Part shown: positions 419-51,187 of the stretch, piece after piece
Position numbering within the stretch: the first letter of the stretch is position 1
How the letters are laid out: each line of letters starts with the position of its first letter
Source of the DNA: Verrucomicrobiota bacterium
Lineage (GTDB): Bacteria; Verrucomicrobiota; Verrucomicrobiia; Chthoniobacterales; SZAS-18
Direction: 5' to 3'
Assembly (NCBI GenBank): GCA_025353105.1
Contig: JANXRG010000035.1
Coordinates: 1 to 64,000 of the forward strand
Length of the DNA: 64,000 bases
The notes under the pieces: generated by a model
Database searches by the model: none
What the model was told of the DNA's origin: nothing
Seen by the model: the letters and a program-made list of their open reading frames with translations, nothing else
Made by a program: the position numbers and the translations under genes

Positions 419-2068
419 CTACGGACGGACGTAGAGGTAGAGAGTCTTGGGCGGCGTGTAGGAGAATACGTCGGCGTAGTTGCCGCGCTCGGAACTGTAC
501 GGGGCGTTCAGCAGCATTTCGGTCCCGGTCCAGATGGCGCCGGCGAGATCAGTGCGTCCGCCGATGGTGCCGTTCGGCGCAATCGCGCTCCACTTCCCGA
601 CGCCGCCGGCCGCGGCGGGCTCGAAGCGGCCGCCATCGCCGAGACTATTGCCGCCGGGCGTGTTGCGTCCTCCCCAGATGATCATCTCGGTGCCACTCCA
701 GATCGCCGCATGGGTGCCGCGCCGGCCGATCAGCGGCGAGACCGGGATGGCGGTCCATGTGTCGGTGGCGGGGTTGTAGCGGCCGCCATCTGCCACGTAG
801 TCAAAGATGACCGCGGCCACGCCGCCCCACACGATCATTTCGCTTCCCGTCCAGACCAGGCTGAAATCAATGCGCGGCGTGGGTGAGTCGACCGCACCCA
901 TCGCGGTCCAGATGCCGTTGACGGGATCATATCGCGCCCCGACCGCAGCATAAACAAAGCCGGCTCCATAGCCGCCCCACACCAACATTTCGCCGCCGGT
1001 CCAGACGGACTTGTGGCTGGCCCGCGCCGATACGGCTGGATCAACCGGCACGGGCGTCCATGTGTCCGACGCCGGATTGTATCGCCCACCATCGCCAGCG
1101 TAAGTGACATCGTAGCCACCCCACACTATCATCTCGGCCCCGGTCCAAATTGCCGTGTGGGAACTCCGCGCCGTGGGTGCGTTGTTCGTGTCGGTGACAA
1201 GCCACGTGTCCGTAGCGGGGTTGTAGCGTCCGCCGGTATTCGTGTAATTGTAGGTGGTGAAAGGCGTGTAGGTAATGTTGAAACCGCCCCAGATGATCAT
1301 TTGGCTGCCCGACCAAATGGCGGTGTGGCCGAAGCGCGGTGTGATGGCGGGATCGTTGGCGATGCGCCGCCAGGAGTTGGTGGCCAGGTCGAGTCGCAGG
1401 CCGCCCGGATAAACGAGATCGCCATAGCCGCCGCCCCAGATGAGCAACTCGCCACCGGTCCAAACCGTGGTCGAACCGCCGCGCGCTGCGACCAACGATT
1501 TCCACGTGCCACCGCCCACCCCGGGCGTGAAGCGGCCACCATCCTTCAAGGTGGACACCGACGTATTGATGCGCCCGTAACCGCCCCAGACAATCATCTC
1601 GGTCCCCGTCCAAACGCCGGTGTGGGCGTAGCGGCCACTGGGCGCGTCCACGGTGGCGAATGTGGTCCAGATGTTAGCGACGGGATCAAAGCTCGCGCCG
1701 TCGCCAAGCGGAGTGCCCGCCGCGCCCTGACCGCCGAAGACGAGCATGGCCGAGCCGCTCCAAACCGCGGTGGAATAAAAGCGCGGGCTCGGCGCGTTGA
1801 CGTTCGAAAGCGTGGCCCAGGTCTTGGGCCCGGGATTGTAGTTGGCCACGTCGTTGTAGTAAACGCCCCCCAAGCCTCCCCAAATCAGCACCCCCGAACC
1901 CGTCCAGACCATGACGTGCGCATAGCGCGTGGCCAGCGGACTGGCCGACATGGCGGCCCAGGTGTTGGTGGTCGGATTGTAGTGCGCGCCATTGTTGTAA
2001 AAGGAGCTGCCGCTTAGCGCGCCGCCCCAGACGATCATTTCCGTGCCGGTCCAGACGGCGCGGTGCAC
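419..2068 (-). CDS. Kelch-repeat surface protein A, C-terminal part (after in-frame stop)
   Basis: This 549-residue frame begins with the GTG directly after the TAG at 2071-2069 and is in the same frame as the upstream part (2069-3247). It holds kelch motifs 4-14 of the gene, each of the form H-x-A-V-W-T-G-x-E-M-I-V-W-G-G followed by G-G-R-Y-N-P-x-x-x-x-W. It ends in the tail YTPPKTLYLYVRP, shared with paralogs B and C. There is no signal peptide, so if it is translated alone the product would stay in the cytoplasm. I read it as the C-terminal piece of one secreted beta-propeller protein, about 942 residues if read through, disrupted by a nonsense codon. Confidence 0.7.
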   Translation of the reverse strand: MHRAVWTGTEMIVWGGALSGSSFYNNGAHYNPTTNTWAAMSASPLATRYAHVMVWTGSGVLIWGGLGGVYYNDVANYNPGPKTWATLSNVNAPSPRFYSTAVWSGSAMLVFGGQGAAGTPLGDGASFDPVANIWTTFATVDAPSGRYAHTGVWTGTEMIVWGGYGRINTSVSTLKDGGRFTPGVGGGTWKSLVAARGGSTTVWTGGELLIWGGGYGDLVYPGGLRLDLATNSWRRIANDPAITPRFGHTAIWSGSQMIIWGGFNITYTPFTTYNYTNTGGRYNPATDTWLVTDTNNAPTARSSHTAIWTGAEMIVWGGYDVTYAGDGGRYNPASDTWTPVPVDPAVSARASHKSVWTGGEMLVWGGYGAGFVYAAVGARYDPVNGIWTAMGAVDSPTPRIDFSLVWTGSEMIVWGGVAAVIFDYVADGGRYNPATDTWTAIPVSPLIGRRGTHAAIWSGTEMIIWGGRNTPGGNSLGDGGRFEPAAAGGVGKWSAIAPNGTIGGRTDLAGAIWTGTEMLLNAPYSSERGNYADVFSYTPPKTLYLYVRP

Positions 2069-3247
2069 CTAGCGGACCGCCGGGGCGTTGGTGAGCGTGG
2101 TGACGCTTTGAAACTGGGTGAAATTGAAGCGACCGCCCGAATTGAGCGGCGTGCCGCCCGCACCGAGGCCGCCCCAGACGATCATCTCGTTGCTGCCGGT
2201 GACCACAGCGGTGTGGTAGGCGCGCGCGGCCACGTTCCCGTTGGCGGGAATGGTCGTCCACTCGTCGCTGGCCGGATTGTAATAGCCGCCGTCGCTGAAG
2301 GGCGTGGTCGCGTTCGTGCCGCCCCATATCAGCATGATGCCCGCGGCCAGCACGCCGGTGTGTCCCGCGCGCTCGGACGGTGCGTTGATCTTCGAGATGG
2401 GCGTCCAGAGATCGAAGGTCGGATTGTAGCGTGCGCCGTCATTGAGATAGGTGCTGTTGGCATTCACGCCGCCCCAGACGATCATTTCCGTGCCCGTCCA
2501 GACGGCCGTGTGGATGTAGCGATCGCCGGGCGGCGCGTTATGCAACGGGTTGAAGCGCTCGGCCGTCTCGATGCCGGTGAGCCGGACGTAGCCCGCGTTG
2601 AGCAATTCGGTCGCGTTGGGATTGGTCGACATGATGACGCCGCCGCTGGCCACGCCGCTCTGGCCGCTGGCGTTCAGATTGGCGGCGGCCGTGCCGGCGG
2701 CGAGCTGGGCGTTGGTGATCGCGCCGTCGGCGATGTTCGCCGCGCCGACCGCTCCGACCGCGAGCTTGGCGCCGGTGATGGAGCCGTCGGGCACATTGCC
2801 GGCCATGATGGCGTAGCCCACCGCGGCGATGCGTTGATCGGGCGTGAGCAGTTGAAATCCGTGCGAGCCGTCATTGAACCAGACGCGCAGCCGGACGTCG
2901 GGATTGGTGAAGACCGCGACGGGCACAATCGTCATGTTCGGCAGCAGGGCGTTGCCAAGCAGCACGGAGTAGAGGCCGTTGACGACCGGGAGCGAGACTG
3001 AGGCGGTCGGCTGGCTGCCGGCATTGCTGGTGCCGTCGTTGCTCCAGTAGGTCTGGGTGCCGTTGCCGTTGACGAGCGCAAACTTGAACTGGCCGGTGCC
3101 GTTGAAATTGGTGCCGATGACCGCAACGCGGCCCTGGTAGTTGAGGAGCTGGGGGACCTGGGAAAAGGAACAGGGAGCAAAAAGGAAGGAAGAAAGGACG
3201 ACGAGGGCCGCGAGGGCGAGCGTCGCGAAACGTTTGGAGAAGTTCAT
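2069..3247 (-). CDS. Kelch-repeat surface protein A, N-terminal part (ends at in-frame TAG)
   Basis: 392 residues. The signal peptide covers about residues 1-29 (MNFSKRF, hydrophobic core, then CSFS before QVPQ). An N-terminal domain of about 180 residues follows, with the motifs NYQGRV, GLYSVLLGN, LRVWFNDG and LTPDQRIAAVGYA. A short repeat block comes next (DGSITGAKLAVGA, ADGAITNAQLAAG), then kelch motifs 1-3. The frame stops at TAG where intact paralog B has Tyr in the homologous stretch P-A-A-R-Y-V-H-R-A. The frame is unchanged after the stop, so one base substitution explains the break. Part of the signal peptide is encoded by a dispersed purine-rich repeat. It is either a pseudogene or a secreted three-motif truncation. 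Confidence 0.75.
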   Translation of the reverse strand: MNFSKRFATLALAALVVLSSFLFAPCSFSQVPQLLNYQGRVAVIGTNFNGTGQFKFALVNGNGTQTYWSNDGTSNAGSQPTASVSLPVVNGLYSVLLGNALLPNMTIVPVAVFTNPDVRLRVWFNDGSHGFQLLTPDQRIAAVGYAIMAGNVPDGSITGAKLAVGAVGAANIADGAITNAQLAAGTAAANLNASGQSGVASGGVIMSTNPNATELLNAGYVRLTGIETAERFNPLHNAPPGDRYIHTAVWTGTEMIVWGGVNANSTYLNDGARYNPTFDLWTPISKINAPSERAGHTGVLAAGIMLIWGGTNATTPFSDGGYYNPASDEWTTIPANGNVAARAYHTAVVTGSNEMIVWGGLGAGGTPLNSGGRFNFTQFQSVTTLTNAPAVR

Positions 3248-4977: not shown

Positions 4978-5540
4978 GGCGGGGAATTTCAGATCTTAGA
5001 TTTTAGATTTGGTAAGGCGAAGGAATTAGCCAAAAAAGGGCGGACATGGAGCAAGATCGGAGCGCTGGAGGCGCGATGGACGGTAGCCGATGATGATAGC
5101 CACCGGATCGAGGGACGAGGCAAATTCAGATTTCGGAATGCGGAAGCGGGAAATCGGAATGCGGATTGGAAAAAGACGATAGTTAACCACAGCCAAGGTC
5201 GATGAATAGACCGAGTCAGCCGTTCAAGCCGCGCACCGGTAGCGGCAACCAAAGCGGGAGCCAAGCGAAGCAAAGGACAGCCAGAGGCACATCACGCGGA
5301 GGGGCGGAGGGAGAAAAGGAACGCCGAATTGCGGAGTCGAACGTCGAAGGCCTGAGAAGGAGGTGATTTAACCGCCAAGAACTCAGAGAATGCAAAGTAC
5401 GGGAGGACGGCGGACAGCAGGAAGAACAGCCAAGGCTCACTCATCGGCGCGAGGCGCCGATCGATGAAGTTTACCGCTTAGGCCTTGCTTGGTGTTCTCC
5501 GTGGTTAACTTCTCCACCTCCAAAATCCGCGATCGGAAAC
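4978..5540. repeat. Repeat-bearing intergenic region left of the integrative element
   Basis: 563 bases without a supportable gene. It carries more copies of the local repeat families: 'ttcggaatgcggaagcgggaa' type at about 5134-5165, 'ttaaccgccaagaactcagag' type at about 5367-5390, gtcgaacgtcgaa at about 5336 and 'ctccgtggttaac' at about 5497. Confidence 0.45.
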
Positions 5541-5568
5541 GAGCGGGTGAAGGGAATCGAACCCTCGT
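5541..5568 (-). other. Attachment site remnant: duplicated 3' end of tRNA-Gly
   Basis: 28 bases identical to 11081-11108, which covers the T-arm and the 3' acceptor strand of the intact tRNA-Gly(CCC). The flanking bases differ on both sides. A 3'-tRNA fragment immediately before a tyrosine integrase gene is the classic footprint left when an integrative element recombines into a tRNA gene. Confidence 0.85.
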
Positions 5569-5666
5569 TACGCTTTCGTCTCTTTGCAAATTCATATTAC
5601 TCTTATTTAGTACTTGTTAGAACGAGCTTGAACGGCGTAGGTTGTTATGCAAAAGTGTTATGCGCC

Positions 5667-6836
5667 ATGGCAAGCATACATCTCCAACCGGGCCGCCCGT
5701 TCTACTTTGCGGCCTACACCCTCCCAAACGGTCAACGGGCTTTCCGGTCCACCAAAACGCGCAATAAGCGCCAAGCGGAGGAAGTGGCGAGGGCATGGGC
5801 AAAGGCGGCTCGGAAGGGCCGCAAAGGCGTCCTCACCCCCGATAGCGCGCGGACCATCATAGCGGAAGGGGTCGCCGATGCCTTTTGCGTGGCGACCGGC
5901 GACCGTATGCCCCAAAACACCGTCCGCGAATGGGCCGCAACATGGCTCAAGATGAAGGCCATCGAAACGGAACCGTCGACGCATGAGCGTTATCAAGGTG
6001 TAGTCGACCGCTTCATCAAGTTTCTTGGCGCCAAAGCCGACAGGGACCTCGTCACCATTCAGCCCGAAGTTATCACCAAACTCCGCGACGAACAGGTTGA
6101 GAAACTGTCGCGAGCGTCGGCCAACCTTGCCGTGAAAGTGCTTCGAGGTCTCTTCGCTACCGCGTTGAAGCGGGGCCTCGTCACGTCGAATCCGGCCCTT
6201 GCCGTGGAGGTCCTCAAACAGCGAGGTGAAAGCAATCGGCGACCATTTACCGTTGCGGAAGTGAAGCGCCTACTGGCCGCGGCGGATATGGAATGGCGCG
6301 GACTAATACTCTTCGGCCTATACACCGGGCAGCGCCTCGGAGACCTGGCTGCGCTCACATGGCAGGCGATAAAGATGGGTGCATCCACACAGGATTCAGA
6401 AATCGCCTTCCAGACACAGAAGACAGGGCGCCGGATGGTGCTTCCCTTGGTCGCGCCTTTGTTCGACTACGTTTCCGAATTACCCGCAAGCGATTCTCCC
6501 GACGCACCTTTGTTCCCTCGCGCGGCATCGGCCGCGTCGACCGCGACATTGAGCAATCAGTTTCGCCAATTGCTGGTCTCCGTAGGAATGGCGGAGAAGC
6601 GGCCTCACAGGTCAACGGGGAAAGGCCGAAATACCACCCGCGAACGTGCAGAGATTTCCTTTCATTGCCTGCGGCACACTGCAACCACATTCTTGAAAGC
6701 GGCAGGTGTGAGCAACTCGATGGCGATGGACATAATCGGCCACGACTCCGAAGCGATTTCGAGAGCTTATACCCACTTCTCTGCCGAGGACGTTCGCCGC
6801 AGCGTAGAAAAACTGCCTGATGTGACTAAGGAATGA
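5667..6836 (+). CDS. Tyrosine recombinase / site-specific integrase
   Basis: 389 residues from ATG 5667. The frame is open further up to 5547, but that extension only translates the tRNA fragment and spacer. An N-terminal arm and SAM-like core-binding region (about 85-180) precede the catalytic domain. The catalytic set appears complete: R223 in TGQRLGDL, K252 in QTQKTGRR, H333-x-x-R336 in FHCLRHTATT, H359 in IIGHD and nucleophile Y368 in AYTHF. It should excise or insert the surrounding element at the tRNA-Gly site. Its stop overlaps the next start in ATGA, so the two genes are translationally coupled. Confidence 0.93.
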   Translation: MASIHLQPGRPFYFAAYTLPNGQRAFRSTKTRNKRQAEEVARAWAKAARKGRKGVLTPDSARTIIAEGVADAFCVATGDRMPQNTVREWAATWLKMKAIETEPSTHERYQGVVDRFIKFLGAKADRDLVTIQPEVITKLRDEQVEKLSRASANLAVKVLRGLFATALKRGLVTSNPALAVEVLKQRGESNRRPFTVAEVKRLLAAADMEWRGLILFGLYTGQRLGDLAALTWQAIKMGASTQDSEIAFQTQKTGRRMVLPLVAPLFDYVSELPASDSPDAPLFPRAASAASTATLSNQFRQLLVSVGMAEKRPHRSTGKGRNTTRERAEISFHCLRHTATTFLKAAGVSNSMAMDIIGHDSEAISRAYTHFSAEDVRRSVEKLPDVTKE

Positions 6837-10975: not shown

Positions 10976-11081
10976 CAACGGAAAGCGAAGGCCCACGGGT
11001 GGACGAGAGGACAGGGAAACGGTCATCCGACAATTCTCAAAATTCCGTCAATTCCATCCAAAACCAAAACCCTCGACGGAG

Positions 11082-11152
11082 AGCGGGTGAAGGGAATCGA
11101 ACCCTCGTATCAAGCTTGGGAAGCTCGTGTTCTACCATTGAACTACACCCGC
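11082..11152 (-). tRNA. tRNA-Gly (anticodon CCC)
   Basis: Cloverleaf read on the minus strand: 7-bp acceptor GCGGGTG/CACCCGC, D-stem GTTC/GAAC, anticodon stem CGAGC/GCTTG with loop TTCCCAA (anticodon CCC), and T-loop TTCGATT on a 5-bp stem. The discriminator base is T and the CCA is not encoded. The T-arm and 3' acceptor strand are duplicated at 5541-5568, marking this gene as the attachment site of the adjacent element. Confidence 0.95.
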
Positions 11153-44643: not shown

Positions 44644-44738
44644 GTGGCACGCTTGAATTAAGTCCGGAAGTACTGCTTCCTTGCCGTGGCTGAACCGTGA
44701 TAGAGTCACTGTCAGCAGTTCTCCCCGGGTCACAATTC

Positions 44739-47594
44739 ATGATGCAAATGCATGGCGGCGGTCGCCTGCGTCGGTTCGCCGCCGCCTGCTTCGCATTTTC
44801 TTCCGTCCTCCCTGTTCCCTCTTCCTTTTCCCAAGTCCCGCAGCTGATCAATTACCAGGGCCGCGTGGCGGTCAGCGGTACGAATTTCAACGGCACGGGT
44901 AATTTCAAGTTCGCCCTGGTGAATGGCGATGGCACGCAGACGTACTGGAGTAATGACGGCACGAGCCTGGCGGGCAGCCAGCCGGCGGTGGGTGTGACGC
45001 GCACCGTAACGAACGGACTTTATTCCGTACTGCTGGGCGACACCTCGCTCGGGGCGGCCATGACGACCATCCCGCTGGCGGTGTTCAACAACTCCGACGT
45101 GCGCCTGCGAGTCTGGTTCAACGACGGACCGCACGGCTACCAGTCGCTCACACCGGACCAGCGTATCGCCGCGGTGGGCTACGCAGTCATGGCCGCAAAC
45201 GTGCCGGACGGCGCGATCACCACCGCGAAAATCGCTGCGGGTGCGGTTACCAGCGCGCAACTGGCGAATGGCGCGATTGGCGCGGCGCAACTCGGCGCGG
45301 GTGCGGCGGCCGCGAATTTGGCCGCTGGCGGCCAGAGCGCGGTCGGCAGCGGCGGCGCGATCGTTTCGACCAACCCGAACGCGACCGAGCTGATCGCGGC
45401 GGGTTACGTGAGGCTGACCGCGATCGAGTCGGCGGAGCGCTATCGCTCGATCCGCAACACGCCGCCCAGCGGCCGGAGCCAGCACACCGCGGTCTGGACC
45501 GGCGCGGAGATGATCGTCTTCGGAGGGAGCAGCAATCGCGTAAGTGCCATCTTCGACGACGGCGCGCGCTATTATCCCGCGATGGATCACTGGGTGCCGC
45601 TGCCCAAGGAAAATGCACCGAGCGCGCGCTTCGCCCACATTGCGGTGTGGACGCCAACCTACGGTCGAATGATCGTATGGGGCGGCGCGAACGCGAGCGC
45701 CACCCTCGCGGACGGTGGGAGCTATGACCCCGTGCAGAACGTTTGGACACCGATTCCAGTTTCGCCCGTGATGTCGGCGCGCAGCTACCATGCAGCCGTG
45801 GTCCTCGGCAACACGGTGGTGGTTTGGGGCGGCACCTCGATTCCCACCGGAGGGGGAGCGCTAAACACCGGGGGGAGGCTCGATGCTCTCACGCTGCAAT
45901 GGACCGCCACGTCCACTGGCGCCAACTCGCCGGCAGCCCGCTACGTGCATCGCGCCATCGCCACGGACACCGAGATGATCGTCTGGGGCGGCGCGGCGAG
46001 CGGCGCCACATATTTCAACAACGGCGCTCGTTACAATCCGGTAACCGACGCCTGGGCGGCGATGGCGACGCCCGCGCTGGCGACGCGCTACGCGCACACA
46101 CTCGTCTGGACCGGTGCGCGCATGATCGCCTGGGGTGGAGTGGGCCTATCCACGTACAGCGACGGAGCGATGTACAATCCGACGAACAATACTTGGACGG
46201 CGATGGCGGCGGCCACCGGGGTGGCGGGACGGTATTACTTTTCCAGCGTCTGGACGGGCGGTGAGATGATTGTCTTTGGTGGCAGCAATTCCGCCGGCGC
46301 GCAGATCGGCGATGGCGGTCGCTTCAACCCGACCACGAATCTTTGGACGGCGCTGCCGGCGCCCGATCTGTCCGCGCGCCGCTGGCTGCACACCGCGATC
46401 TGGACGGGTGGGGAAATGATCGTCTGGGGCGGAGACTTTAGTGACGGATTGGACACCGGCCGGCGCTTCAATCCCTTCAGCAACACGTGGCTCACGATGC
46501 AGACGCCGCGGCGCGACGAAATTGCGGTCTGGACGGGCACCGAGCTGATCTTCTGGGGCGGCCAGATCAGTCTGGGTTTCAATACCGTCGACTACAGCGA
46601 CGATGGGCTGCGCTGGGACGCGGCGACAAACGTCTGGCGGCGCATCCCGCCGGACCCCGTGATGCCGATCCGCATCGGTCATACCGCTGTGTGGAGTGGC
46701 AGCGAGATGATCGTCTGGGGAGGATTCCAACCGGGCGGCGGCCGCTACAATCCGGCGGGCGCGGGCAGTTGGACCGCGATTGCGTCGAAGCCGGAACTCG
46801 ATCTCCGATTTTCTCACACGGCTCTCTGGACCGGAACTGAAATGATCGTCTGGGGCGGATCCTTCTTCACCGGCGGCATCAACACTTACCCCGCAGTGGG
46901 CGGGCGCTACAATCCCGTGACGGATGCCTGGACACTGATGGCGACCCCGCCCGCCGCAATCCCCGCGCGCGCGGGGCACACGGCGCTTTGGACCGGCACC
47001 GAAATGCTCATTTGGGGGGGTTATTCCTCCGATGCCGGAAATGTCTACACCTATACCAACACCGGAGGTCGCTATCGTCCGGTGTCGGACCAGTGGACGG
47101 CGACTAGCGGGGCGGGCGCGCCTGCGGGTCGCTATGCGCACACGGCAGTCTGGACCGGAAGGGAAATGATCGTTTGGGGTGGGAGCAGCAACAACGCCCC
47201 TTTCCTTTTTTCGGATGGCGGCCGGTACGATCCGGCGGCTGACGCTTGGACTTCCATCGCCGTTCCGGCCGCGATCCTCGGCGCCCGCTACCAGCACATG
47301 GCCGTCTGGACCGGCACGGAGATGCTGATCTGGGGTGGCGATGGCTTCGGTCCCAGCGGCGTCTACAGCAACTGGCAAAGTGGCGGCGCGCGTTACGATC
47401 CCACCGGCACCGGCACCTGGTCGCCGATCACGCCAAATCGCGAGATTGGGGGCCGCGATGCGGCGACCGCCATCTGGACGGGCACCGAGATGATTGTCAC
47501 GAACCACTCCTCAGCCGATTACCTGGCCGGCAACTATTCCGAGGTCTTCGGCTACACGCCGCCCAGGACGCTGTATCTCTACCTGCGGCCGTGA
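44739..47594 (+). CDS. Kelch-repeat surface protein B (intact)
   Basis: 951 residues from ATG 44739 (GTG 44697 would add 14). A signal peptide, RLRRFAAACFAFSSVLPVPSSFS, ends before QVPQLINYQGRV. The N-terminal domain with GLYSVLLGD, LRVWFNDG and LTPDQRIAAVGYA is followed by DGAITTAKIAAGAVTSAQLANG repeats and then 14 kelch-type motifs (W-T-G-x-E-M-I-V-W-G-G ... R-Y-N-P-x-x-x-x-W), which would make two seven-bladed propellers. It ends YTPPRTLYLYLRP. It is presumably secreted or displayed on the surface; the ligand is unknown. This copy is the reference for broken paralogs A and C. Confidence 0.88.
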   Translation: MMQMHGGGRLRRFAAACFAFSSVLPVPSSFSQVPQLINYQGRVAVSGTNFNGTGNFKFALVNGDGTQTYWSNDGTSLAGSQPAVGVTRTVTNGLYSVLLGDTSLGAAMTTIPLAVFNNSDVRLRVWFNDGPHGYQSLTPDQRIAAVGYAVMAANVPDGAITTAKIAAGAVTSAQLANGAIGAAQLGAGAAAANLAAGGQSAVGSGGAIVSTNPNATELIAAGYVRLTAIESAERYRSIRNTPPSGRSQHTAVWTGAEMIVFGGSSNRVSAIFDDGARYYPAMDHWVPLPKENAPSARFAHIAVWTPTYGRMIVWGGANASATLADGGSYDPVQNVWTPIPVSPVMSARSYHAAVVLGNTVVVWGGTSIPTGGGALNTGGRLDALTLQWTATSTGANSPAARYVHRAIATDTEMIVWGGAASGATYFNNGARYNPVTDAWAAMATPALATRYAHTLVWTGARMIAWGGVGLSTYSDGAMYNPTNNTWTAMAAATGVAGRYYFSSVWTGGEMIVFGGSNSAGAQIGDGGRFNPTTNLWTALPAPDLSARRWLHTAIWTGGEMIVWGGDFSDGLDTGRRFNPFSNTWLTMQTPRRDEIAVWTGTELIFWGGQISLGFNTVDYSDDGLRWDAATNVWRRIPPDPVMPIRIGHTAVWSGSEMIVWGGFQPGGGRYNPAGAGSWTAIASKPELDLRFSHTALWTGTEMIVWGGSFFTGGINTYPAVGGRYNPVTDAWTLMATPPAAIPARAGHTALWTGTEMLIWGGYSSDAGNVYTYTNTGGRYRPVSDQWTATSGAGAPAGRYAHTAVWTGREMIVWGGSSNNAPFLFSDGGRYDPAADAWTSIAVPAAILGARYQHMAVWTGTEMLIWGGDGFGPSGVYSNWQSGGARYDPTGTGTWSPITPNREIGGRDAATAIWTGTEMIVTNHSSADYLAGNYSEVFGYTPPRTLYLYLRP

Positions 47595-47689: not shown

Positions 47690-49621
47690 ATGATGACCAG
47701 GCTTAGCGGACCATTCTTTGGCTGGCTGGCGCTCGCCGCGCTTTCCTCCCTCCTCCTTGTTCCCTGTTCCTTTTCCCAAGTCCCCCAACTAATTAATTAC
47801 CAGGGTCGCGTCGTGGTGAACGGCGCGAATTTTGCCGGCACCGGCCAGTTCCGTTTCGCTCTGGTCGATGGCGCCGGCAATCCCTACTGGAGCAACGACG
47901 GCACCAGCATGGGCGGGCCGCCGATTAACGCGGTTTCAATTACCGTGACCAACGGCCTTTATTCGGTGCTGCTGGGCGACAGCACGTTGCCGAACATGAC
48001 GGCCATCCCGCCGTCCGTCTTCAATAATCCCGATGTCCGCCTGCGTGTCTGGTTCAACGACGGCACCAATGGTGTGCAGCAACTCACGCCCGACCAGCGT
48101 ATCGCCGCGGTCGGCTATGCGGTCATCGCCGGCAATGTCCCTGACGGCGCCATTACGGGCGCGAAGATCGCCGCGGGCACCATTACCAGCGCGAACATCG
48201 CCACCGGCACGATCACGGGCGCGAACATCGCGGCCGGCGCGATCGGCAATCCCCAGCTTGCCGCGGGCGCGGCGGCCGCGAATCTCGCCGGCAATTCCCA
48301 AAGCGCGGTGGGCAGCGGCGGCATCATTCTCGCCGCCACGCAGGATCCGGCACTGGTCGCGGCCGGCTACGTGAACATCGGCTCCACCACGATTGCCGAT
48401 GGCTGGCAGCAGCGCGTCACCACCATCCCGCCGGCCTCGGGCCGCTTTTCCGTGACGGGCGTTTGGACCGGCGCCGAGCTGATCGTGTGGGGCGGCTGGA
48501 CAATCAGCCCGCTGGCGTTTTTTGGCGACGGCGCGCGTTACAACCCGGTTTCGAACTCGTGGACCGCCCTGCCCGCGGCGGGCGCACCGACGCCGCGGCG
48601 CAGCCACACCGCGATTTGGACCGGGAGCGAGATGATTGTCTGGGGAGGCATAAACAGCGGCGGCGCGCAGGGCGACGGAGGACGCTACCATCCGACCACC
48701 AACGCATGGTCGGTCGTCACTCCGACGGGCGCGCCGTCCGCGCGTTTGTCGCATACCGCGGTCTGGACCGGGAGCGAGATGATCGTCTGGGGAGGAGCCG
48801 ACGCGAGTTTGAACCCGTTCGCTGACGGCGCCCGCTTTAACCCGAGCGCGAACGGTAACGCCGGTCAGTGGTCGCCGCTCAACGCGGCCATGACCACGCC
48901 CCCCTCGGCGCGCTTCTCCCACACGGCGGTGTGGACCGGCACGGTGATGATCGTCTGGGGCGGCAGCAGCGCGTCGATTCAACTCGGGGACGGCGCGCGC
49001 TACAATCCGATTGCCGCCATGTGGACCGCGCTGCCGGCGCTGAATGCGCCGAGCGCGCGTTATTCGCACACCGCGGTCTGGACGGGCAGCCTGATGGTGA
49101 TCTGGGGCGGGACCAATAACTCGTTGTCCGAATTCGGTGACGGCGCGCGCTACAACCCTGCGGCCGACGCGTGGTCCCCTGTCGGCACGGACATGAACAC
49201 GCCGGGACCGCGCCATCTGCAGCTCGCGGTTTGGACGGGCGGCAGCATGATCATCTGGGGCGGATTGAACAACTCGACGTACCTTGGCACCGGGGGCCGG
49301 TACGATCCGGTATCCAATGGCTGGAGCGGCATCAGCGCCGTCAACGCACCCTCCGCACGCTACGGCAGCGCCGCGATTTGGAGCGGCAAAGAAATGATTC
49401 TGTGGAGCGGGATCGCCGGCACTACGAACTACCCGAATGACGGGCGCCGCTACGACCCCGCTGCAGACACGTGGACGCAGCTCGCTTCGACCTCCCCTTC
49501 AGCGCGCGGCGGCTACTCGGTGGTATGGACCGGCAGCGAGATGATCGTCTGGGGCGGCCGGATCAGCAGCTTGGTTTTCTACAACGACGGCGCGCGTTTT
49601 AATCCGGCCCTAAATACGTGA
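47690..49621 (+). CDS. Kelch-repeat surface protein C, N-terminal part (ends at in-frame TGA)
   Basis: 643 residues. The signal peptide (FGWLALAALSSLLLVPCSFS) precedes QVPQLINYQGRV, the common N-terminal domain and a DGAITGAKIAAGTITSANIATG repeat block. Eight kelch motifs follow. The frame ends RFNPALNT then TGA, where the motif N-x-W in every other unit demands Trp (TGG). The same frame continues beyond, so one base change accounts for the break. It sits 95 bases after paralog B and probably arose by tandem duplication. Confidence 0.75.
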   Translation: MMTRLSGPFFGWLALAALSSLLLVPCSFSQVPQLINYQGRVVVNGANFAGTGQFRFALVDGAGNPYWSNDGTSMGGPPINAVSITVTNGLYSVLLGDSTLPNMTAIPPSVFNNPDVRLRVWFNDGTNGVQQLTPDQRIAAVGYAVIAGNVPDGAITGAKIAAGTITSANIATGTITGANIAAGAIGNPQLAAGAAAANLAGNSQSAVGSGGIILAATQDPALVAAGYVNIGSTTIADGWQQRVTTIPPASGRFSVTGVWTGAELIVWGGWTISPLAFFGDGARYNPVSNSWTALPAAGAPTPRRSHTAIWTGSEMIVWGGINSGGAQGDGGRYHPTTNAWSVVTPTGAPSARLSHTAVWTGSEMIVWGGADASLNPFADGARFNPSANGNAGQWSPLNAAMTTPPSARFSHTAVWTGTVMIVWGGSSASIQLGDGARYNPIAAMWTALPALNAPSARYSHTAVWTGSLMVIWGGTNNSLSEFGDGARYNPAADAWSPVGTDMNTPGPRHLQLAVWTGGSMIIWGGLNNSTYLGTGGRYDPVSNGWSGISAVNAPSARYGSAAIWSGKEMILWSGIAGTTNYPNDGRRYDPAADTWTQLASTSPSARGGYSVVWTGSEMIVWGGRISSLVFYNDGARFNPALNT

Positions 49622-49627
49622 GCGGGG

Positions 49628-50557
49628 GTGCAGGTGAATGGCGCGCCGGGGGCGCGCGCCAATCATTCGGCGGTGTGGACGGGCACCGAAATGATCATCT
49701 TTGGCGGCTTTGCAAGCGGCGCGACCTTTTTGAATGATCTCGGCCGCTACAATCCCACAACCAACGCCTGGAGCATCGCGGCGCCGACCGGGACGCCGCC
49801 GTCGGTGCGATCCAGTCATACTGCCGTCTGGACCGGCGCGGTCATGATAGTCTACGGCGGCACGGCGTCGGGATCTACGCTGAACAATGGGGGTCAATTT
49901 AATCCGTCCACGGATGTCTGGACGGCGTTGCCCACCGTCGGCGCCCCCGCGACAGGTCGGATTCAGCACACGGCCGTCTGGTCGGGCACGGAGATGTTGG
50001 TTTGGGGCGGGTATTCGGGCAGCGTGACACTCGCCGACGGCGGCCGATACAACCCGAGTGGAGCTGGCTCCTGGACCGCGATGTCGCTCACGGGCGCGCC
50101 GCCGAGCGCGCGGAGCATGCACACGGCGGTCTGGACGGGCACAGCCATGTTGGTGTGGGGAGGGACCAGCAGCGGAGGCTTGGGATTAGGATCATTGGGC
50201 GACGGTTATGCCTTCACGCCGGGCGCGGGCACTGCCTGGACAACGCTTGCGAGCGCGGGCGCACCGAGCGCGCGTGCTGAACATGCGGCCGTTTGGACCG
50301 GAGCGGAGATGATCATCTGGGCTGGTTATGGCGGGCCCGCGGCGGGATCGAACCTCAATGACGGAGGCCGCTACAATGCGGCGAACAATTCATGGAGTCC
50401 GCTCACCCTGAGCAACGCCCCGCCGGCGCGCTATTTTTCCTCCGCCGTTTGGACGGGCGCGGAAATGCTGATCTATGGCGGATTTACACCGTTGTCGCTC
50501 AACGACACCTGGAGCTACACGCCGCCAAAAACGTTGATCATGTATCAGCGGCCGTGA
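49628..50557 (+). CDS. Kelch-repeat surface protein C, C-terminal part (after in-frame stop)
   Basis: 309 residues from GTG 49628, in frame with the upstream part across the TGA at 49619-49621. It holds kelch motifs 9-14 and ends YTPPKTLIMYQRP, the tail also seen in A and B. There is no signal peptide. Together with 47690-49621 it would give a 955-residue protein with 14 motifs. It is most simply a nonsense-interrupted gene, though readthrough cannot be excluded from sequence. Confidence 0.7.
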   Translation: MQVNGAPGARANHSAVWTGTEMIIFGGFASGATFLNDLGRYNPTTNAWSIAAPTGTPPSVRSSHTAVWTGAVMIVYGGTASGSTLNNGGQFNPSTDVWTALPTVGAPATGRIQHTAVWSGTEMLVWGGYSGSVTLADGGRYNPSGAGSWTAMSLTGAPPSARSMHTAVWTGTAMLVWGGTSSGGLGLGSLGDGYAFTPGAGTAWTTLASAGAPSARAEHAAVWTGAEMIIWAGYGGPAAGSNLNDGGRYNAANNSWSPLTLSNAPPARYFSSAVWTGAEMLIYGGFTPLSLNDTWSYTPPKTLIMYQRP

Positions 50558-50698: not shown

Positions 50699-51187
50699 TT
50701 ATCTCGCCCCGCGCTTGGGCGCCGTGGCGAGTCGCGCGTCGAAATCGAAGCGCTGCATTTTGCCGATTTTCAGCTTCGCAAAATCCGAATGGACGGGATT
50801 CGCGAGCAGATTGTGCTGCTGCGGAATGATTGCGCTCGGCACGCGCAGCAGGCAGGACTTGCCGGCTTCCAGCCATTGGTCGCCGACTTTCTGCGCCGCG
50901 CCGAGTTCCATCGCGTCATTCCACTTCGCCGGCAGGCGCGGTGGCTCGGCGATCCAGCGTGGGTCGAACTCGACCTCGAAAAAAACGTACGGCACCCGCG
51001 CCAGGTCTTCGCGCTCGGTCGTGTGCACGAGAATTTCCAGCGCCGCAAGCGCGATGCTGTCGCTCAAATAAATCACGCGGCGGCCCCGGGAATTCCAGCG
51101 ACCGCCGTATTTCGCGGCACCGTCGCCCGAGAACGCGCCGCGCGCCACGCGCTGCTGGCAGATGCGATAGGCCCGCGCGAGGCTCAC
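50699..51187 (-). CDS. RES-domain toxin
   Basis: 162 residues from GTG 51187. The RES signature is visible: YRICQQRVARGAFSGDGAAKYGGRWNSRGRRVIYLSDSIALAALEILVHT (R near residue 30, E near 51) and LLRVPSAIIPQQHNLLANPVHSDF. RES toxins degrade NAD or modify PRPP synthetase in other bacteria. The start lies inside the antitoxin stop (GTGA), the usual order for Xre/MbcA-RES operons. Confidence 0.9.
   Translation of the reverse strand: MSLARAYRICQQRVARGAFSGDGAAKYGGRWNSRGRRVIYLSDSIALAALEILVHTTEREDLARVPYVFFEVEFDPRWIAEPPRLPAKWNDAMELGAAQKVGDQWLEAGKSCLLRVPSAIIPQQHNLLANPVHSDFAKLKIGKMQRFDFDARLATAPKRGAR

Follow-up and report, generated by a model that had tools for sequence, protein, structure and literature searches.

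A large kelch-repeat gene of a Verrucomicrobiota bacterium interrupted by a single in-frame TAG: a probable young null allele

Introduction

One described setting in which a stop codon stands inside a gene is a genome whose stop codons have been reassigned (NCBI codes 4, 15, 16 and 25). The assembly analysed here resembles such genomes in that in-frame TAG and TGA occur inside its genes. It differs from them in that both codons also terminate genes, both RF1 and RF2 are present and no tRNA for either codon was found.

Kelch domains are best compared with those of KLHL17, KLHL20 and KEAP1 (PF24681, PF01344). Gene A, the subject of this report, is like them in that Pfam kelch matches are found in both of its halves, as they are in its paralog B. 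Unlike those proteins, A has ~14 repeats, which probably make up two propellers, behind an N-terminal region of a bacterial exported type.

Young bacterial pseudogenes form a third described class. According to Belinky et al. (2021; PMC7918605), in-frame stops are widespread in bacteria and mostly short-lived, and a substantial share of those in raw database sequences is expected to be artefacts. A screen of genetic codes (PMC8629427) attributes some spurious stop reassignments in yeasts to in-frame stops in pseudogenes, often derived from TGG, and describes TGG to TGA as a typical pseudogene change. Gene A shares with the young pseudogenes of Belinky et al. a lone in-frame stop, a coding sequence that is otherwise preserved and an apparently recent origin, but the searches turned up no ortholog of A that carries this stop. 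A fits the known nonsense-interrupted bacterial genes, as a fresh instance of a known phenomenon. The window referred to below is the whole stretch of 64,000 nucleotides that was analysed.

Results

Kelch gene A lies on the minus strand at 419..3247 and comprises 942 codons with a terminal TAG. Translation of that strand bore out a sequence-only reading made earlier, according to which a single in-frame TAG at 2069..2071 splits an otherwise intact gene and the frame is the same before and after it; that reading also gave the position of the gene and its 942 codons correctly. The TAG is codon 393 and immediately follows kelch repeat 3. It is the sole interruption in the gene, and no frameshift accompanies it. 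Normal termination would be expected to give a truncated product of 392 aa (2072..3247, minus strand), which consists of an N-terminal stretch that looks exported-type in translation, a conserved region starting QVPQLLNYQGRV, and 3 of the ~14 kelch repeats. The portion of A that lies 3' of the stop (419..2068, minus strand) accounts for 549 of the 942 codons and 11 of the 14 repeat matches, and it closes with the family C-terminus ending YVRP. PF24681 and PF01344 score above the curated Pfam cut-off in each half, and the Pfam search of A and B returned no domain other than kelch. Since a scan with a kelch profile shows that the repeats run on across the TAG, A is one gene rather than two neighbours.

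The repeat scores and the GC3 gave no sign of decay after the stop, so that A is either not decaying or too young to show it. The mean repeat score there is 55.5 bits, compared to 55.1 in intact B, and GC3 is still high at 0.805. Hexamer coding scores are likewise high on both flanks of the TAG (25.6 before, 32.2 after). About 2.8% of the single substitutions in A would create a stop; the lack of a second one therefore indicates that the interruption is young. By the rule of three, neutral change since inactivation is bounded at ~108 substitutions, or 3.8% of sites.

Kelch gene B (44697..47594, plus strand; 965 codons) is intact and is the closest relative of A. The two are sisters in the family tree with a support of 100/100. 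They share only 52% amino acid identity 3' of the stop, so that synonymous sites are too diverged (saturated) for a test of relaxed selection, and a dN/dS comparison of the two sides of the TAG would miss a recent event. The AlphaFold model of B (mean pLDDT 75.6, pTM 0.63) matches solved kelch propellers, for example KLHL17 (6hrl), with a TM-score by target of 0.76.

None of 12 aligned homologs has a stop at the column of the TAG, although no true ortholog of A is known. Intact kelch homologs are present in the same genome, namely B and the C24 and C117 genes. Since the homologs are intact and free of a stop at that column, the stop in A is derived. The equivalent residue of B is a Tyr, encoded by TAC, within AARYVHRA, just as the sequence-only reading had quoted. 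However, the "conserved tyrosine" of that reading is an overstatement. Only three of the 12 homologs (B, E117 and H1) have Y in this column, where the rest have F, N, S, L or V. Among 990 kelch repeats, 175 have Y and 140 have S at the equivalent place. The same reading derived the TAG from TAC by one change. As several sense codons are one substitution away from TAG, such an ancestor is likely, though unproven.

A had also been presented as a singular case, which does not hold. Paralog C (47690..50557, plus strand; 955 codons) is interrupted once, by an in-frame TGA at 49619..49621, which is codon 644 and falls in repeat 8. The corresponding column has Trp in 9 of the 12 other rows of the alignment (A, B, D24, F2, F3, F4, H1, H2 and J1). 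Neither translation nor the kelch profile scan revealed any damage to C besides the TGA. Further genes in the assembly carry in-frame stops, as described below.

To see how often the family is interrupted, a kelch profile derived from 128 repeats was run over the window and 90 loci (L056 to L145); a cluster was defined as four or more repeats. The counts exclude the ends of kelch genes on contigs C40 and C111 as well as the C26 matches, none of which formed a four-repeat cluster. Of the 102 clusters, six are interrupted: in-frame stops account for A and C, and frame changes for the other four. One of the frame changes is in a genome of the same genus (G001), and three are in other species, once each at L100, L105 and L140. 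The G001 gene (L063 ~6870, minus strand; G001:C84) shifts frame at a run of seven G, for which sequencing error, decay and a variable tract cannot be told apart. A single in-frame stop is thus found in 2 of the 5 kelch clusters of this genome versus 0 of 97 elsewhere, where 80 of the loci (L066-L145) had been gathered with the second half of A as query, which may favour intact genes. By chance alone, both of the clusters with a stop would come from the 5 of this genome, out of 102, with a probability of about 0.002, a contrast inflated by the choice of the window for A. With A left out (1 of 4 versus 0 of 97) the probability is about 0.04, too weak a basis for a conclusion. The surplus of kelch genes with stops in this genome is therefore suggestive only. 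In a further relative, G063, one match contains two TGA.

The kelch family is patchy among relatives and dispensable. A kelch match was found in 16 of the 97 genomes searched in the same order and in 3 of 7 genomes of the same family, this genome being included in both counts. In this genome purL adjoins B, and in two genomes of the same genus the stretches fetched around purL contain no kelch gene. A literature search that paired kelch with Chthoniobacter found nothing, and the matches listed for kelch with Verrucomicrobia were gut and medical papers.

Other in-frame stops were sought in 857 kb of this genome (G000), from which 632 reading frames of 100 residues or more were picked. A hexamer model replaced a codon-usage scan, which was too weak (428 candidates, many of them in shadow frames). 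True interruptions were picked by eye from same-frame neighbour pairs, most of which are ordinary adjacent genes. Such pairs numbered 48 in the first 457 kb and 90 over all 857 kb; a sample of 364 kb from G001 gave 21. Beyond the first 457 kb inspection was confined to pairs above the score threshold (11 more in G000 and 8 in G001; 19 re-listed), and a few pairs, such as C111:1902, were ambiguous by eye. Frame changes were surveyed in the kelch genes only.

Three further interrupted genes were accepted, and each of them is on contig C117. The gene for an ABC transporter ATPase has an in-frame TAA (L154:18163-18165) and that for a capsule-synthesis-type protein an in-frame TGA (L156:6899-6901); in each the Pfam domain spans the stop. 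A subtilase has both a TGA and a TAA (L155:6125-6127 and 5351-5353); its Pfam domain crosses a stop, and the second stop is just beyond that domain. A search of the whole genome for ABC_tran gave 63 matches, of which the C117 ATPase is the one with an internal stop. No in-frame stop was seen in the 364 kb of G001 by the same procedure. The accepted stops are on two of the 12 sampled contigs (C10 and C117; 277 of the 857 kb), and the other 580 kb has none. In-frame stops in this assembly are therefore not special to kelch genes, though they are uneven along it.

Discussion

The most probable explanation, at roughly 60%, is an incipient pseudogene: A would be a nonsense (null) allele, very young, of a dispensable exported-type propeller protein. 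A single nonsense substitution, which is presumably real in the cell, would very recently have made A a null allele. Translation would end at the TAG and give an exported-type protein of 392 residues with the N-terminal region and three of the ~14 kelch blades. Three blades would not be able to close a beta-propeller, and the truncated product is thus expected to lack activity or to be broken down. The cell should tolerate the loss of A, which is probably near neutral, since A is redundant within a family of patchy distribution. Paralog C would have been hit independently by an event of the same kind. Interruptions of the same type in C and three further genes of this assembly support a young null allele.

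An error in the assembly must be weighed against this explanation. The TAG of A and the TGA of C could be consensus errors, or minority alleles picked by the assembler, and the gene would then be intact in the cell. This is unlikely, though the chance is large enough to be taken seriously. An error would look identical to a null allele. The draft is in 121 contigs, A sits 419 bases from a contig end, and the other in-frame stops of the assembly are likewise seen without further damage; a stop is also found inside one of the ABC_tran matches. Contigs C111 (L059) and C40 (L060) start inside two more kelch genes, one with an N-terminal part and one with a C-terminal part, which indicates that the assembly breaks in the kelch family and struggles with it. 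However, errors would have to be confined to two of the 12 sampled contigs, and all five genes that are hit are of accessory kinds. Paralog cross-assembly was considered as a source of the TAG and is unlikely, as the five kelch genes, compared pair by pair, share identical DNA tracts of at most 30 bp and the assembly contains no second copy of A.

The remaining explanations take the stop to be real. None of 46 tRNA matches, all of them typed, has a stop-reading anticodon (the assembly is 97.57% complete). The gene with the PAT motif, which we take to mark RF1, is intact, and the gene with the SPF motif, which we take to mark RF2, is there too but is truncated by contig ends. It is extremely unlikely that TAG or TGA is a sense codon in this organism. 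The in-frame stops themselves, and nothing else, speak for such a code, whereas A ends with TAG, C with TGA and the intact C24 paralog with TAG, each at the conserved C-terminus of the family. Both codons therefore act as terminators here, and 62 of the 63 ABC_tran matches are free of stops. Recoding as a whole is very unlikely. A stop in A that is read through at a useful level, as dosage control or as a reversible off-state with full-length protein made, is improbable. The sequence 3' of the stop is well preserved, and the concentration of single in-frame stops in the kelch clusters of this genome points the same way. Belinky et al. (2021; PMC7918605) argue that bacterial in-frame stops, short-lived as they are, are often under purifying selection. 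But readthrough, which the sequence-only reading had implied, finds no support in a genome with release factor genes and no suppressor tRNA, in a gene that itself ends with TAG. A stimulatory RNA structure at the stop was not supported, because the RNA around it folds no better than its shuffles (z -0.28), and the position of the stop is unmatched in the other family members examined. Low-level readthrough, as far as can be judged from sequence, may give some full-length A product. Finally, both halves of A could be made if translation restarted at the GTG that abuts the TAG on its 3' side, and the second product would then have 549 residues; in the output of a gene caller 419-2068 would appear as a reading frame. 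This is highly improbable. No sequence like a ribosome-binding site was found ahead of the GTG, and in translation the second half shows no export signal at its start. The break also comes after 3 of ~14 blades, and the family has no other example of a split at this place.

An in-frame stop in a draft genome is usually either a young null allele or an error, and A alone means little beyond the practical point that gene callers will list it as two proteins. The observation would gain importance only if the surplus of kelch genes with stops reflected real and reversible silencing of surface proteins. Large exported kelch-propeller proteins of this lineage would in that case be toggled by short-lived, revertible stops, with part of a redundant surface repertoire silent at any one time. 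The basis for this idea is that 2 of the 5 kelch genes of this genome are interrupted by stops without other decay, and that kelch loci elsewhere have single frame changes, one of them at seven G. It is very improbable that the stops in A and C are switches of this kind, and a recent loss of function remains the preferred explanation for A.

Two other features of the window were noticed. A protein with a RES domain is encoded directly next to kelch gene C (50699-51187, minus strand); the RES domain is known from toxin-antitoxin pairs. An exact direct repeat of 28 bp is found at 5541-5568 and 11081-11108, the second copy being the 3' end of a tRNA-Gly (ccc) gene. The two copies bracket ~5.5 kb that starts with a tyrosine integrase gene (5547-6836), and this stretch is probably an integrated element with its attachment repeats.
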